DNA from: Varroa destructor
Taxonomy: Eukaryota > Arthropoda > Arachnida > Mesostigmata > Varroidae
NCBI RefSeq assembly: GCF_002443255.2
Contig: NW_019211455.1
Location: 7,101,959 to 7,165,958 of the forward strand
Length of the DNA: 64,000 nucleotides
Direction of reading: 5' to 3'
The translations under genes and the position numbers were made by a program. The notes below the pieces were generated by a model. That model did not search any database. It was not told where the DNA came from and saw only the letters and a list, made by a program, of their open reading frames with translations. Within the stretch, counting starts at the first letter, position 1; the number at the start of each line of letters is the position of its first letter. Shown here one piece after another: positions 23,899 to 33,800 of the stretch.

Positions 23899-24126
23899 AT
23901 TTACAATTTTGTCACATCAGAATCAACTTGCATCGACTTATAAGTAATTCACAGTGTGAGAATAAAAGTACAGCGCCCTTTGCGTCCGTAACAAAATTAT
24001 TGAAGTTCATATTTTTGTTCCAGAAGTAAGTGTGCTAAATATAATTGCACTAGCTGCTTAACTATGAAGATTATATGCAGGAAGAACGAAGAACGACGTC
24101 AGTTTCATTTTTGCTGTTGGTGATAA

Positions 24127-27100
24127 TTAAGCCTGAAAGTACCTCCTCAACTTTAAAGCTTCCGCTGCCATTTCCTCTTGGCTTCTTGGGCGTTTCTTCG
24201 GCACGGGGTCTTGAAGCTGTGTGTTAAGAGAGACAGACGACAATATATATTGAAAGAATACGTACACCTATCATATCCGTGATGGTAAAAGTGCATAGGT
24301 TCGGACAAATTTTATCTCAGGTAAACATACAAGATGATATAGTGCACTTGTTCTATTAATTTTATCCTAGTATGCAGAAAAGAAGAACGACAACAACCGC
24401 TTTTGGATAAAAATAGTGAAATCAACATTATCGTTAGTTCTTCAAAAATTATTAGAAATCAGTGAGTGTAGATAGCAACTTAGGTGAAATTTAGCTTACA
24501 TATGCTACAGTAATTCATTGTATTTGTTTATGCCAAAGGAAAGCAAAAGGTAAATTTACGGTAGTACACGACGCAAACCTAAAAGAAGTTTACGACACTT
24601 TTTGAACAACTAGAAACCGACCTTTACCTAATCTACAAACGATTATTCTCTAACTGATAGCCTTACACTGAAGTCTCTTTACGTACTACGACACATTTGC
24701 GAAACACAGGGAGCCAATACAACGTGGCCACAGCTCAGCTTCGCTCTTCCCTATCAATTCCTCCTTAACAATTAAGCAATTTTTTTATGCCTGACATTCG
24801 TTTTCTTATACCATTTGAGAAATATAACATTTGAAAGCTATTGCGGTAGACTACCGAACCTGTAATACGGCTCGTTGGAACCCGGCGTCATGAACCTACC
24901 TCTGTATAAATGTCATTGTCATTTTTGAAATCGCCTATATGACGAGGAAGGATATGCACATGCAAGTGGTCTATGCTTCGTCCTGCCAGAGTGCCGTCCT
25001 ATAAGAGAAACAAAGCGGATTCCCAGTAATAGTAGCTCTTCTGCGATAGTCTTGAGAACGCCTGTCGGCTCAATAACGTTCTGTGCATTATTTGGTAAAA
25101 AAAATATATATATATATAGAAACTATTATAACTTTGTAATAGATGTAGCTCTTTCTGATGTACTTCTGACCACTCTATCTAATAGACGCTGCTTTTACTT
25201 AGTGTCACAATTTAATTAATTACTAGTTTCCGTTTTGTATCATAGTTATATTTTCACAGAGTTAACATATTGTTTTAATATATATACTAAATTGACCCAA
25301 GTCACTATAGCTGCTATCGACCATAAATGCCACATTATAATAATGATACACAGGGCATAGGGAAAACTCTAGCATGTAGTTTGCAGGATTTGAAGAAGGT
25401 GTGAATAAATACAGCAATAATAACTTGCGAACGTCACTGGTATTATTCTCAGTTTGAAAAACTGTTGTCTGTGGCGGCCTCTAGAGCCCAGTTCGCCCAA
25501 CTACGCCAAATGCTCTACACTTTAATGATTACTCGTACGTCGTTTCCTGGCATGAGACCTTCACGACGATTGCGGAATCTTCCTAAGCACTTAGGATGAA
25601 TTGGCAAATCAGTGATAATCGCGGCCTTGCAAGTGGCCGCTCCTATAGAACAATGTGTACTGCCTTTGCTCATCATAAAACCAGTAATTTATAAAGCCTT
25701 AGAGCAGATGTCACTGATGCGTCTTTGTTAGGGTTCATGAAAGACTTCTACGCAGAATAAGCCCAGCTGAAGGACACTTTTTTGAAGATTACGATTAATG
25801 AAATTATTTAATTAGCGACCTTTGGTCTTCAAGAATAATTTTAATTCTTTAATAATGTTTAGGATAGATTTGTTTCCAGAATTGTTATCCAATGATTTTC
25901 CCACAACATTTTGCAAAAAGGCCAATCTGCATACATCAAAAATTCCCTTAATAATTTACGTGATACGTTGGCAGAGGATTGTGTGGCAACAATGTAGACG
26001 TTTTCCTTTAACGTTGCTTTGCCAATAGTGACTAATTAATTACTGGTTAAGCTACCACTAAGAGCAGTCTTGAGACTTACTTACAGTTCATAATTCTGTT
26101 ATATGCATTTTAAGTAAGCAGTTCCTGTGTCCATTCCTGTTTTTTTTTTATCTTTATAAAAACATTGCGAACCTGAACAAGTTTAATGCAGAAATTAAGC
26201 ATTGGTAGTACGGTAAATTGGTAGTTCTGTAATCTTATGTCCTATAAATAAAACTAAGCAATCAAGCAGTCGACGTCCGATGACTTCTGCGAAAAAGCAA
26301 GGAAGTGAAGCCCGCAGAAATGATGATGTAGTCTTTTAATATGTATATGAGAGTACCTGTATTGAAATAGTCGAGTCTTCTGCCTTAAACTCCTCCTCGA
26401 CAGCTTTCTGAACTTCACTGATGAGCCAGAACATGTCTCTCGCTTCCTCGGGAGTGATATCTGCCAGTCGGATAGCACTTGCCCTCAAGGGTGCCACTAA
26501 GACGTCTGAGTGCAATCATCGCAAACATCAAGGACGATCGCGTTCAGGGCGTAATTGCGTGCTTACCGAGATATTTTCAAGAGAATTATAAAAAGCTACT
26601 AAGGATAACTCCCAAACACCGAAAACATTTATAATCACTTACGTCGGGGCTTGATTTAGATAATGGTGAACAATACTGTTCCGTTGACAATGCAGTTTGA
26701 GCAAATTCCTGTATCTGTACAATGTGCGTGTAGGTAGGAACCTGTTTGTTACTCAAATTGCTGACAAAGTCGCTAGTGATACCTGTATATTAATGGTGGT
26801 GGAATCCGCTTGATACTCTTGTTCGACGACTGCCTGTACTCGTTTCACTAGCTCGAAGAGGTCCATCCGTTCTACAGATGTCAAATCTTTGAGTCGAAGA
26901 GCGGGACGCAGAGGAGTAACCAAAACATCTGTGGCCCCCCAAAGCGCCCATTGTCAAGAAGCAACGGATGTGCAAGTTAAGGAAAATCACTACAATCCGC
27001 CTTGTTTAAGAAAACAACTACGAGAAAGATCTAGTATATATATTGAGATTAATTGCTTTGAGTTTTTGGAAAACTAATCTAGAAATTCATTGTGAACTTG

Positions 27101-30100
27101 TTTTGGTACCCAAAATCACCACTCGGATTGCACTGCAGGAAGTGACACAAACCAGTCGCGATATGGGATCCCGAACATTCGTCTATTCGTTCTGGGTATA
27201 GTTGCCTATAGCGGAACAAATATCCGCGCCAGGCAAAAGCTCTCCAGAACGTACAATTTTATCTGTAACATGTATTTACTATCTGAAACGAGTAAGAGTT
27301 GCTCGTTCAGTTCATGGATTACCCGGATAGGTACTACCCGTAACACACTTTCACAGATAATTTAACCACTTTCATGGATAATTTAACAAGTCTTATTAAC
27401 GTAGTAAATAAAGTCTACTACACTACTGTGTTCCGTACCCAGGGGATGCCTTATTACAGCTCTTGAAGATCTAATTAGTCTCTAATCTACACTTTTGCGT
27501 CTGTTTTGTATCAAATTTTGATCTCAATTTCAAAATATAACCTAAAATTTGCGAGAACCAGTGATCTAAGCATCCCGACTGATTCTAAACAAACCACTTC
27601 TAAAGCGGTTTCGCTATGAGAGATATAACCTGATTTATCTAGTTATTGTCCTCAAAAATTCTTGTCCGGTCCAACGTGTAGCTAATGATGGTCACTCTAC
27701 CCGTTGGTTTAATTTTTGTTCATAAGATTTTAACAGTGTACGACTCAGTGATTTACCAAATTCGCCCAAATAAACGCTTGAAGTCCATGTAGTAACAGAA
27801 CGAATCGATTGTGTACACATAAAAAATAACATGTTGTTGTCATCGTCAGGATTGATCGTAAAAAGCCTTAGTGTAAAGTTAAATGCACTCAACACAAAGC
27901 TACAGTATGTTGCAGTGTGTTCGCAAGACTTTCAAAAAGGATACGTCCGTTAAGAACGGGCATTTTGTTGACAAACGCCATCGATAACGCAGTTTTGTGA
28001 AAGAGCTGAGATTTACATAGCTGCACTTGGCCGAACTGGTAGGTCTCCTGGGAATCGATACCTGAACGGCAGGAAACAACGAAGAAAAACAGAAATGATT
28101 AACTTTACTATTAATAAATTTCCTTAGAATAATTGACATTCAGAATTAAATTTAGAAAAATAGACGGAAAAATGCTTAGAAATTAATAAATCCGACTAGG
28201 CATTAGCCTCTTGTGTTGCACTTCGTGTAAATGCAGAGATAGATAACCATTACTAATAGAAAAATTGGATGAGTTCATCGGAGTGCGTCAAATATTTAGA
28301 CCTCTGACTGCGAAGGCTGAGCGCGTTACTTCAAGTTACAAATGGACTTAACGCTGTGTATCTGGACGTTCAATAGTCAAAAAAATAAGCTACTTATATT
28401 TTCCTACAAAGCCTTTATGTTCGAACATATTATTGCAATGCATAAACAGGTAAAGGACTCGACAGCCATGGTCAGATTTCATACAATCAGGACGACACAC
28501 ATAATTAAAAGGCAAGCAGACCATCTTACACAGAATAAACAAAACGCACCGCTGTTGCTGTATACAGGAGCAGGCTCTCCGTAGAGGTCAGGCCTACGGT
28601 GGCAGAATACGGGCATTCGCTGGCGAACCGTTTCGAGATATCCCAAGTCTATGTCAGCGTATATCACCTGATTCGTCTTATCTGACGCCTGAGCGATTAC
28701 TCCCCCCCATGGATCGACTACCTTTAAAAAAGAAAATTGATTCTTTTAAACCTTCCCAGTGAAATTCCAGGTTAGTCTTAGGGTTTGAAATAAGCCTGCA
28801 CCATTGTTTTTACATAAATATTAAGTTGTCATAAGTAAATAGGGCGGACCTTAAAATTTAATAATTTCTAAACTACATGACATTAGCAGAGGAAATTTAG
28901 CTGGTGAATGCTCTAGTCTTTTACAAACTTGTGAGTGAAAACCTTGTGAGTGATTGTAAGAGAGATAGATTTAAAAAAAAAAACATTTCGAAGACCAATG
29001 CTTAGTGGTCAAGCTTTTTCTTCGATGGCCTGCGAAGCGATGCGAAAATTCATTGAAGACTAAAAGGACTTCAATATGAAATTTTCATGCATGCACCATA
29101 TGACCCCGATCTTGTATCAGAATATTAACTGTTTTGGCCTCCGTGTTAATTTAGTTTTAACAAAGGGATACAAAAAATCGCGTATGAAAATTGTTCATTC
29201 AGAAACCACAGAAGTTTTACAGCGATGAAGTTGTGGCAATACCAGAAGAATGACAAGAAATTATCGATCAAAGTTGTACATATTTAGTTTTGTAATAATA
29301 TATCAAAATATAATAAAATGTTTGCCTTAATTTTGGCTTAAGAACAACTAATACTTTTCCGACAACCCAATAGTTGCGCAATTTGTACTGCTAAAGGGAA
29401 TTCTGATTCTTTCAAATTTTTATAGGAATCAATGCATGATATCATTATTTATTACAGCCGTGTTGCTTTATACATCTGATAAATACGCATGATTTAGCTA
29501 TTATTCCTGCATGCGCAAAATTCTTGCGATTGCAAAAATGAATATTGGATCTTTAATTATTTGCAGTCATTTCTTATAGTGCATGCGTCATTCTTTATTT
29601 GGACATAATTGAGATAATCCATTGTATAAAGCCCCTCGATACTTATTATATATTCCGATCGCTTCCTAAGTTCTACAAGTTTAAAAAACCAACAAGAAGA
29701 CAGAACACGAATTACCTTTTATCGTAAATGCTACCATAAAGAATGTTGGTCGAAACGCGACGTAAATATAAACACCTGAATTAAAATATAACAAAACACA
29801 TTATGCAGATATTAAGCTAGTAAATACACGTACCATTGAGTGCCCATACGATGATCTCTTCGGACTGTGTTGGCCAATTTGGGCTGCAGCGACTACATAG
29901 CACTGTGTCTCTATAGCGCGCGCTCTTAAAAGAGCTTCCCAGTGAGCGTAGCCTGTGCTGACCGTAAACGCTGATGGGTAGGTGAGAATTTGAGCTCCAG
30001 ATTTTGCCAGACTAAGGGCGAGTTCGGCAAATCGCATATCGTAACAAATGGCCAAACCCACTCGACCAATCGGAGTTTCTACAGGTGCCGTTATCTGACC

Positions 30101-30895
30101 ACCCCTAACTGTAAATTGCGATTCTTTGATTCGGAATGTTGGAATATCGACATCGAATAGGTGCACCTTATCATAGGTAGCTGCTACTTTTCCTTCGGAG
30201 TCAATTACGATGTGGGTGTTGCTAATCTTCTTTAGGTCCTCCTCAGCTAAACGTTCGGGTCGAACGTGAAAGGAACCCAGCGAGATCCAAATATTGTTAT
30301 CAAAAGCGAGTTTGCAATACGATTTCATCAAGGGTCCGTTAAGTGGCTCTGCCAGCTCAAAAGCCTGATCCCGATTCTCACCCACAAAGTCTGTACACTC
30401 CGGAAAGAACACCATCTGAAACATTATATCACCAGATAAATACATTGATAACGTAATCTAATGCGCGTAGTAAATGGTAACGTCGCGTTCAGAGTGAGCG
30501 TTTTAAATGAATTAAGTATGTTCCAATAATAACTGTTAGTAAATGCTATTAAATAAACAAGTAATTTGGTAGTTCATGTTACTAAATTTCTTACTTATTC
30601 AAAGATTACAACATGTATAAAGAATAATCCGCCTTTCGTTCTTTCAAGTAGTTTTTCAACATCGATAAGCACATACCTTAGCACCATTGTTTTTCGCTTG
30701 AACAATAAGCTCAGAGAATTTATTAAAGTTCTCGTCCTTTTTACATGATGACGTAACTTGGCAGACAGCGATTCGGCCCAGTCGATTTTCAGCTGTGGTA
30801 CTCATTGCTCGAAAGTACGTGAGGTACGGCAAAGGACGACAGAAAGGATAAGTCACGACGGAGCTCAACGCTAAGCGAGGTACAGCCTTAAGCAT
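24127..30895 (-). CDS. NitFhit: NitFhit: nitrilase-like amidase fused to Fhit diadenosine hydrolase
   Basis: Minus-strand exons in order: 30677-30895, 29834-30415, 28550-28721, 27945-28061, then 26783-26928 (5A) or 26357-26505 (5B), 24900-24998 and 24127-24216. All borders are GT-AG and all phases match, giving 474 or 475 residues. Nit part: Glu79 in VFFPECTDF, Lys156 in YDKVHLF and Cys197 in AICYDMRF form the nitrilase triad; SYGHSMVVDPWG and HRRPDLYG close the domain. Nit1-type enzymes act as deaminated-glutathione amidases. Fhit part: YQFGQVQL, FVNKMPV, GHVLV and the histidine triad HLHVHI (His423/425/427), ending in a Lys/Arg-rich tail with EEMAAEA; Fhit cleaves Ap3A-type dinucleotides. 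The N-terminus (MLKAVPRLALSSVV) could be a mitochondrial signal, and a second Met at 31 could start a cytosolic form. The fusion matches the fly and nematode arrangement. Confidence 0.95.
26357..26505 (-). other. NitFhit: NitFhit alternative exon 5B
   Basis: A diverged second version of the same exon, 277 bp further downstream in the transcript: HVLVAPLRASAIRLADI, then MFWLISEVQKAVEEEF and ending ISIQ (50 residues). Acceptor TGATTGCACTCAG, donor ATACAG|GTACTC. The first codon is again His (C + AC). About half of its residues equal exon 5A, it has one extra residue, and it has lost the Pro after PLR. It has no stop or frameshift. If it were spliced after exon 5A it would read ACG TCT TAG, an immediate stop. 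Confidence 0.88.
26783..26928 (-). other. NitFhit: NitFhit alternative exon 5A
   Basis: Encodes 49 residues from the His completed by the preceding exon (C + AT) to Gln412: HVLVTPLRPALRLKDL, then FELVKRVQAVVEQEY and ending INIQ. Acceptor GGGGGCCACAG, donor ATACAG|GTATCA. It keeps the HVLVxPLRP pattern and the DL pair of ordinary Fhit, so it looks like the canonical version. Its length, 146 nt, is not a multiple of three. Confidence 0.9.
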
Positions 30896-33800
30896 CACTG
30901 AAAAAAAAGGCAACCAAAATACGTTGTTGAAAACAAAACTGGCCCTCGAATCACCGAAGTGAGTATTCGGAAATGCTATACTGATTTGACTCAGCGAGTA
31001 ATCACCTGAAGTAATATAATTTAAAGAATAGACAAATGGCGTACACAACAAAACAACAACGGGAAGAGACACGAAGCAACCAACTGTCTCAAGACGTAGG
31101 TTTAGCAGAATACTTTCAGTATTTCACTTTTACTCAGGTTATCTTCAAGTAAAAAGAAATAATTCGACCCTTTCGTTAGTGTGAGCCATTTGGACATGGG
31201 CAGTTATCGAGGCACGTAGAAATATTCTCCGACTCTCAAATGCACAATCTGCTATCAGAATATGTTACAACAGAACTTAGACTCAAAATAAAGGCTTATT
31301 ATTCTGAAGCATGTGATGAAAGCCCAGTGTACCAATTCAAGAGGAAGGCGGCCGTGAGAAGAGCGGCTTCAAGAAAAAGCGTGACTCTATACTTATTTGC
31401 ATAATTGCATCGAGCGTATCCTGAATTGGCATTGTCCCTAGAGTGTGTAGGACAGAAATCTAAAGAGAATATCGCCAACTGAGTAAGGCTGGTTGCCTTA
31501 CCCTATTCTCTGAAACGTTCCTTTAAAAAAATCACAGTACGCCGATGTTTGAAGAGATGCTACAATTCGTTAACAATATATGCGCTACTGACTCGGTGTT
31601 TTGTCTGTTCTAACGGTTGATAAATCACGCAACCACTTGTTATTTTTGCGGCTCGATATCCAGTTGGTATATAAACGGTTTCGCAAAAGTTTGTTTAAAG
31701 AAAATGATCAAATATCTTTTAGATTGTTTTTTTCGATTTTGCAGGTCGTTTTAGTTGATGTGTGATCCCAGTGGCTTAAAAAGTACCCGTACATACTGGC
31801 ATACTCTCCAAATAAATTTCAACGATTAAAAAAGTTTGGTCATCCACAAATACTGAAACTATATGTTTTCAAGACAGCATTACACTTTATCAGCATTATA
31901 ATTTTTATGACCACTGTGACTCTTAATGCATGTTTCGGGACAAAAAATTAAATTTTAAAAGCGAGTGTTTAAATATATATTCGTAATACCTAATAGAGAA
32001 CAGTGAGCAACCTTCTCATCCCTCTATAGGTAAAATGTGCTTAGCAAGGGTGCTGGCGGTAAGAGGTTTCAGCCCAGTAAAAAGCTGCTGATTAAATGTC
32101 AATAGACCATTATGACTTCATGAGCATCCCCAATAATATTTCTATTTATTACGAGTACTAATTGATGGGTATTAGTACCATTCAGTTAGCCCGTAACAAG
32201 CTCATACGTATAGACTAGGCTTAACTATCAACTTAAAATTCAGTCCACTGTCCCATGCGGCAAACGAATACATTTTTCTGTAGTAAAGGTACAAGGGAGA
32301 GCCTTTTAGGAGCAGATTTCCGTATTGTAACACACAGCTTAAGTTACTGACGACTAAATGATGGCGTAATTACAATAAAAATATATCGACATGCTCATAT
32401 TTGGTCGTTTTGTGGGTTCTGTTCAAGCTTGTTTTTGGATCACAACACTTGAGCACCCCACATGCAACAACCCATATTAACAGTTCTTCAAAAATATCCG
32501 TTTAGTAAAAGCACTCTGGATTCTATTTCAGTTATTTTAAGCTTTTTCACTAAAACGCATGTTCTATAAAAAGAAGGCAGTTTTTAAATTGAAAGAATTA
32601 AAGAGGCGTAAAGAAGAAAAGACAAATCATATTTTTCTGCTTGGTCTAAAACTTGGTAGATTGCAATACAACGCAAAATCTACGACTGAATGGTTTGTGT
32701 ATCTTTATTTTTTTACAATTTTTTCTATCATAATAGATGACAACATCATCAACATAATTTCTATAGCTTTCTATAATTATTTATAGAGTTAAACGGTAAG
32801 TCCTGTAGCACTTTCACTTCATCAAAAAGGTTCAATGGCTGTGACGATTCTGTAAAAACATCGTTCTTCACGATGCATGGTCTCTGGGGAGATGTTGCAA
32901 AGTAGATAATTCGTTTACACTTATTGTTTTTAGGTGTGTTACCATTATCGCCTAATTCATATTTTTAGCCCACTCACGAGTAGTTTGAGTACTGTATTCT
33001 TAGTAGGCTTTAGAAACTATCGATCGTCGAAGTTATATCAGACATTGCCTGATCTTGGAGAAATGCGAAGTAAAGCTGGTATCGAAAAATGCACTTTTTT
33101 GCCTGAAATGTTCTCTCGGGGCCTTATTTCGATTAAATTCTGTGTTTATTTTTCAGTACTAATCATACAGACTGATAGAAGGCGTCAAGGACTTTTACAT
33201 GTATAACTGCATTCAACCCGTGGCAAGGGACTGAGGACAAAAGCAAGTATATACAAACAGAACGCCAAAGCTTACCATACGACCATTCACTTATATCTAT
33301 ATTTTTCACCATATGTATATTTTTAGATATATCTATGTGAATTTAAATTCGATTTATTTTGAAAGCAAACAGATACATCCACCATGACTTGTAGATTCAG
33401 AAAGTGTAATCTTCCTTTGCGTTCGAATATCCGAATGCGTCTGCTTGCTTAACGTAACATACAACACACCATTCAATGCACACAGAAATAAATATTGATA
33501 TTCGCTTGTTATCACACGCACGGTCGCAGCGTTGTTCTTTTTCTCAGGCGCTCTCGTACCGTGTCATGACGGCCGTTCATGACCACATACGTGACAGTCC
33601 TACCTACAGATCTACCATCATTCATTTAGAAATTCGTACATACAGGTATATTTACAAATCGAATAAACTGTTCGAGAACTACACGACCTATAATTATTGA
33701 GACTATGGGACATCTAGATTGTGCAACAATACACCACAAAGGTTCATTAGTACGCCATTTCAAATAGCTTAAATATGAACATGTATAGTACAGGCGTATT

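Follow-up and report, generated by a model that had tools for sequence, protein, structure and literature searches.

Results

The window, a stretch of 64,000 nucleotides of the Varroa destructor genome (an assembly of 366 Mb in 112 contigs), carries on its minus strand a complete NitFhit gene (Table 1). Spliced translation of this gene predicts a protein of 474 residues with exon 5A or 475 residues with exon 5B. The 5A isoform is letter-for-letter the last 474 residues of P0001, a V. destructor protein that NCBI names NitFhit-like isoform X2 and on which PF00795 and PF01230 are annotated. The nitrilase-like and Fhit (HIT) domains lie in one chain that also includes the HxHxH triad (HLHVH, in exon 6), the combination by which a NitFhit fusion is recognized, and the best match to 1EMS extends over residues 40-470 with an E value of 1.8e-125. 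P0001 itself is 756 amino acids long and fuses part of the coding sequence of the upstream gene, presumably a Ulp1/SENP-type protease, to NitFhit exon 1 (minus strand of the window, approximately 37107-36589 and 36385-36055, then 30897). Because the donor of this junction lies within an exon of the neighbor (after 36055) and the acceptor is located two bases ahead of the NitFhit ATG, P0001 is best regarded as a RefSeq chimera of two adjacent genes. A search of the genome for HIT domains produced six matches, of which even the best resembles this Fhit only weakly (E 0.015), and the absence of the window's own split Fhit exons from these matches indicates that the search is insensitive to genes of this kind. 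A scan of viral contigs returned 39 distant HIT or nitrilase relatives, which are uninformative for exon structure. Contig L010, filed as viral, includes at positions 790-1602 a Nit-domain relative with 37% identity in its best segment (query residues 41-313).

Table 1. Features of the V. destructor NitFhit gene (window positions) and minor snRNA loci of the genome (G000 contig positions)
Feature	Position	Strand	Evidence or remarks
Complete NitFhit gene, start to stop codon	24127..30895	-	Spliced translation; identity to P0001; 1EMS match
Constitutive coding exons	30895-30677, 30415-29834, 28721-28550, 28061-27945, 24998-24900, 24216-24127	-	Spliced translation
Exon 4	27945..28061	-	Ends after first base of histidine codon (phase 1)
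U12-type 5′ splice site GTATCCTTT, exon-4 donor, intron common to 5A and 5B	27936..27944	-	9/9 to RTATCCTTT
U12-type branch-point motif TTCCTTAAC, upstream of 5A	26976..26984	-	9/9; branch A to exon 48 nt
Weaker branch-like motif CTTCTTGAC, upstream of 5A	26953..26961	-	7/9; branch A to exon 25 nt
Exon 5A, 146 nt, probable conservative copy	26783..26928	-	14/14 conserved columns kept
U12-like branch-point motif GTCCTTGAT, upstream of 5B	26527..26535	-	8/9; branch A to exon 22 nt
Exon 5B, 149 nt, probable derived copy, one additional residue	26357..26505	-	11/14 conserved columns kept
Exon 6, HLHVH histidine triad	24900..24998	-	Acceptor with good pyrimidine tract, 14/17 pyrimidines
U11 snRNA	G000 C3:37846574-37846707		76.9 bits (Rfam cut-off 39)
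U12 snRNA	G000 C2:12868303-12868446		53.2 bits (Rfam cut-off 53), barely passes
U4atac snRNA	G000 C2:45731178-45731294		62.8 bits (Rfam cut-off 53)
U6atac snRNA	G000 C1:60996308-60996396		53 bits (Rfam cut-off 33)

A preliminary description of this DNA had proposed two alternative exons between exons 4 and 6, each encoding the segment from the GHVLV histidine to the Gln that precedes DG, and our analysis arrived at the same coordinates. The phases agreed as well: both exons run from phase 1 to phase 0, rebuild the histidine as C+AT or C+AC, and end in CAG. Both have an AG at the acceptor and a GT at the donor. They are adjacent, homologous, equal in phase, and splice-compatible at their ends, as expected of mutually exclusive exons. 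The alignment of the two peptides has a score of 123, compared with a mean of -15 (SD 9) and a maximum of 23 in 2000 shuffles. A tblastn search of the window with either peptide found the other copy at E ~9e-12 and no third copy, the next best match having an E value of 0.63. As had been predicted, inclusion of both exons places a TAG at the third codon of 5B, and skipping of both shifts the frame, with a stop after 26 codons; a frame broken by including both or neither is a common, not universal, property of mutually exclusive exons. Steric blocking between 5A and 5B was also considered and is unlikely because 277 nt separate the exons.

The 5A and 5B peptides share 26 of 49 aligned residues, and the exons differ by 19, 13, and 29 nucleotides at the three codon positions. 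By the NG86 method dN is 0.42 and dS is 2.5, the latter being saturated. When neutral drift of 5A to the observed divergence was simulated 2000 times, 336 of the products were stop-free and none retained 26 identical residues (maximum 23). The dN and dS values and the drift simulations together indicate that the pair diverged under protein-level selection, at least for much of its history. The duplication is old, for although so many residues are shared, no repeat of at least 16 nt, among those reported for positions 24000-31200, connects 5A with 5B. A recent duplication was rejected for this reason and because synonymous sites are saturated.

P0001 contains 5A, and the segment in the NitFhit of Tropilaelaps mercedesae, P0002, is of the 5B type: of the 24 columns that distinguish 5A from 5B, P0002 agrees with 5B in 10, with 5A in five, and with neither in nine. 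Conservation reaches 85% or more at 14 columns across 31 other relatives, a set that includes many closely related ticks. P0002, like 5B, keeps 11 of these columns, and the two deviate at the identical three columns, with an added residue, a change of L to I, and a change of S to D at a column that is S in all 31 other relatives. The exon-5 tree, built from 21 of 34 peptides after one column of the 50, to judge by its filling that of the extra residue, had been removed, paired 5B and Tropilaelaps with support of 96/89. Since AU tests did not reject placements of Tropilaelaps with 5A (p 0.077) or of 5A with 5B (p 0.149), the tree supports this pairing and goes no further. The NitFhit-like proteins P0017 and P0018 have the one-residue insert of 5B, lack the S-to-D change, and are not grouped with 5B in the tree; therefore, the insert could have more than one origin and by itself is no proof of ancestry. 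The departures common to 5B and Tropilaelaps, together with the tree pairing, suggest that the duplication most likely predates the Varroa–Tropilaelaps split, 5A being the conservative and 5B the derived copy.

A protein database clustered at 90% identity, where such an isoform could be hidden, showed no Varroa protein of the 5B type. The P0001 cluster has 10 members and, as the two isoforms should be about 95% identical, it would conceal one carrying 5B. A search for short Varroa proteins with a 5B Fhit domain gave one distant protein. Judged from their sequences, 5A and 5B both look like working exons.

In the AlphaFold models of P0001 (5A type) and P0002 (5B type), the exchanged segment consists of a strand, a long helix, and a strand. 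The pLDDT of this block is 87-95 over residues 361-420 in the P0002 model, and 88-95 over residues 641-690 and 77 for residues 691-700 in the P0001 model, which is poor as a whole (mean 63.0), chiefly in its N-terminal part. Among PDB structures, the P0002 model is matched best by 1EMS, the C. elegans NitFhit. As the histidine triad is encoded by exon 6, which both isoforms contain, and as both copies of exon 5 retain their first His and last Gln, the two isoforms should share their catalysis and differ in a tuned helix-bearing Fhit segment.

The donor of exon 4, which serves the intron in front of both copies, agrees at all nine positions with the U12-type 5′ splice-site consensus (A/G)UAUCCUUU, as given in the available part of a published account (PMC8199999), and at only three of six with GTRAGT. 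Its motif occurs once on the minus strand of the window, at exon 4 itself, and five times on the plus strand. In first-order random sequence, 10 of 117153 GT sites showed a match of this kind, as did 3 of 7361 in the window, the exon-4 donor included. U12 introns also have a branch sequence resembling UUCCUURAC near the 3′ end, which is matched at 9/9 positions upstream of 5A and at 8/9, weak alone, upstream of 5B. The perfect motif, TTCCTTAAC, has one copy on each strand of the window, and reading of the sequence found no AG between it and the 5A acceptor. Among 20000 random 60-nt stretches, 21 contained a perfect match, 654 one of at least 8/9, and 5463 one of at least 7/9; of 7367 real AGs, 13 were preceded by a perfect match and 220 by one of at least 8/9. 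By these counts, which are descriptive because the motifs were sought after the donor had been noticed, the exon-4 donor and the 9/9 motif are unusual, the 8/9 motif of 5B is only suggestive when taken alone, and CTTCTTGAC alone is uninformative.

The U12 branch point is usually found 10-20 nt from the 3′ splice site, with an optimum of 11-13 nt (available portions of PMC8199999 and PMC3584512), whereas the distances at this locus are 22 nt for 5B and 48 nt for 5A, or 25 nt if its 7/9 motif is used. For this reason, the intron is called U12-like here and is not filed as proven. Acceptors of U12 introns have no polypyrimidine tract; the 17 nt before the AG include seven pyrimidines in 5A, 10 in 5B, nine in exon 2, and 12-14 in exons 3, 4, 6, and 7. 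The acceptors and donors of 5A and 5B had been described as good; by the yardstick of the major spliceosome they are not, given the tract of 5A (7/17) and two donors that each match GTRAGT at three of six positions. Since both donors are poor U2 sites and that of 5A matches the U12 consensus at 6/9, the contrast between U2 and U12 types is not clean. Pairing energies with the Varroa U11, U12, and U6atac did not single out the exon-4, 5A, and 5B sites: 270 of 2000 random GT sites paired with U11 no worse than the exon-4 donor did, and ahead of both 5A and 5B the most favorable U12 pairings fall off the consensus motifs. The U12-like intron also contains, at 27346-27387 of the window, a 21-nt unit in direct tandem (two copies, 90% identical).

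Each of the four minor snRNAs was found at one locus of the Varroa genome with a score above the Rfam cut-off, which at the snRNA level is what a genome with a minor spliceosome should contain. The same four models matched none of 14 control genomes. The Varroa U12 copy has GUAAGGGAAAU in place of the Rfam consensus GUAAGGAAAAU, in a region that we take to pair with branch points.

Discussion

Exons 5A and 5B are a real pair of tandem alternative exons and very probably mutually exclusive, as the preliminary description had proposed. The presence of 5A in P0001, the 5B-type segment of Tropilaelaps, and the purifying selection on the pair argue for this proposal. By ordinary standards, the splice sites of the two exons are weak. 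A minor-spliceosome basis for the exclusion is likely but unproven. The mechanism that we favor, and consider probable with considerable room for doubt, is one in which the exon-4 donor, read by the minor (U12) spliceosome, would be joined to one of two acceptors, that of 5A or that of 5B, and the U2-like donor at the end of each would then be joined to exon 6. A junction of 5A to 5B would require a U2-type donor and a U12-type acceptor, a pairing that the two machines do not make. Any 5A-5B joining that escaped, or the skipping of both, would break the frame and in this way provide a second safeguard. The outcome would be a pair of NitFhit enzymes that share their catalytic core and differ in the helix-bearing segment of Fhit. 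It had been claimed that the reading frame itself enforces the choice. The part of this claim that stands is that both or neither break the frame, but with a front intron that looks of the minor-spliceosome type, the frame is probably only a back-up. With respect to the choice of copy, 5A is the first in order, and its branch motif is the stronger of the two but unfavorably distant. We infer that both acceptors are handled by U12 splicing, that Varroa produces both isoforms, and that the two have different functions.

Exclusion could also come about through the reading frame and the decay of mis-spliced RNA only, with all introns removed by the ordinary spliceosome and the U12-like motifs being remnants or chance matches. 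We consider this unlikely, although the frame logic alone would suffice to leave single-exon proteins and the branch distances are unusual for U12 introns. In the accessible part of a survey of minor introns (PMC10639083), the Acari show an extreme though incomplete loss, ticks being better off, and such poverty of minor introns in mites counts against the U12 reading, as does a review whose available text describes alternative splicing as apparently almost lacking from U12-type introns (PMC3584512). The available part of a human survey also reports that frame-breaking clusters are far commoner than U2/U12 ones (PMC5740500). Against a purely frame-based exclusion stand an exon-4 donor that is perfect as a U12 site and poor as a U2 site, the 9/9 branch motif ahead of 5A, and the presence of all four minor snRNAs in the genome.

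Two other explanations concern 5B. Varroa may use one copy, most likely 5A, with 5B a relic there, while Tropilaelaps kept 5B; we regard this as improbable. It would fit the single Varroa database protein seen, which has 5A, and the single Tropilaelaps one, which is of the 5B type, as well as the departure of 5B at three of the 14 conserved columns and the failure to find a 5B-type Varroa protein. However, the 90% identity clusters would hide such an isoform, and 5B is open, in phase, has its AG and GT intact, and keeps the other 11 columns. In the simulations, neutral drift left the exon stop-free in a minority of cases and never with as many residues, a result with which a recent loss of use is compatible. 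That 5B is mainly a poison exon, its joining to 5A bringing in a stop that lowers NitFhit output, is very improbable. The TAG on double inclusion is what such an exon needs, but the idea requires a 5A-to-5B splice across apparently mismatched site types, and the conservation of the 5B type at the protein level in Tropilaelaps points to a translated exon.

The mechanism based on the minor spliceosome also has consequences for Tropilaelaps mercedesae, for which the accessible part of the minor-intron survey indicates an apparently complete loss of minor introns (PMC10639083). If minor splicing was lost there, the corresponding intron of NitFhit must have been converted to another type or removed, and retaining 5B alone would be a natural outcome. 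A more speculative scenario, and a rather unlikely one, is that an exon duplicated just behind a minor intron became an instant either-or switch, because the U2-type donor of one copy cannot be joined to the U12-type acceptor of the other. Keeping this switch may be one reason why Varroa, unlike Tropilaelaps, retains a minor spliceosome, Tropilaelaps having settled on 5B. The 5B segment in the one Tropilaelaps database protein is what settling on one exon predicts.

If the favored mechanism is correct, one animal would have two natural versions of a conserved Fhit enzyme in which the helix-bearing segment is swapped and the histidine triad is constant, a clean natural experiment on the role of the exchanged segment. 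The locus would also offer a compact test of how the type of a splice site can by itself impose an either-or choice, in a group for which very few minor introns are reported, and it would yield a sharp prediction for a sister lineage in which these are said to be lost. The two intron positions are also those of human FHIT, where one intron interrupts codon 35 after its first base and the other follows codon 83; should the former be of the U12 type as well, the minor intron would be ancestral.

The NitFhit proteins of ticks, spiders, flatworms, and C. elegans resemble that of Varroa in having Nit and Fhit in one chain and an exon-5 segment that runs from His to Gln. They differ in that the listed protein records of NitFhit from other genera (proteins, not genes) include no second version of exon 5. 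Open PMC full text yielded no paper on mutually exclusive exons with NitFhit, in keeping with the earlier remark that no description of such exons in a Nit-Fhit gene was known, and none on FHIT with a U12-type or minor intron. Among open PMC papers on NitFhit with exon, or on Varroa destructor with mutually exclusive exon, none was on the topic by title and abstract start.

The closest known systems are exons 6a/6b of the JNK genes MAPK8/9 and exons 11/11a of TMEM87a/b, in which, according to the available parts of two articles (PMC8329584, PMC3584512), a mix of minor and major sites bars exon-exon joining. As proposed for 5A and 5B, adjacent alternative exons with mixed sites are present and one is chosen. 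In the human survey, as far as its available part goes, U2/U12 acceptor incompatibility accounts for five of 629 clusters of mutually exclusive exons (PMC5740500). The enforcing principle of these five clusters would be equal to that of 5A and 5B, with frame-breaking as a common second safeguard; known here without gene names, they may include a geometry like that of NitFhit, and no mite gene is involved. Exclusive exons enforced by U2/U12 incompatibility are therefore a known kind, the gene and the lineage appear to be new, both being different from those of MAPK8/9 and TMEM87, and the geometry is perhaps new. In the parts of the MAPK8/9 accounts available, two 5′ sites of the U12 type are in competition with two 3′ sites of the U2 type, and the U12 side is behind the exons. 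Varroa NitFhit would be the mirror image, with one U12-type 5′ site for two U12-like 3′ sites and the U12 side ahead of the exons.
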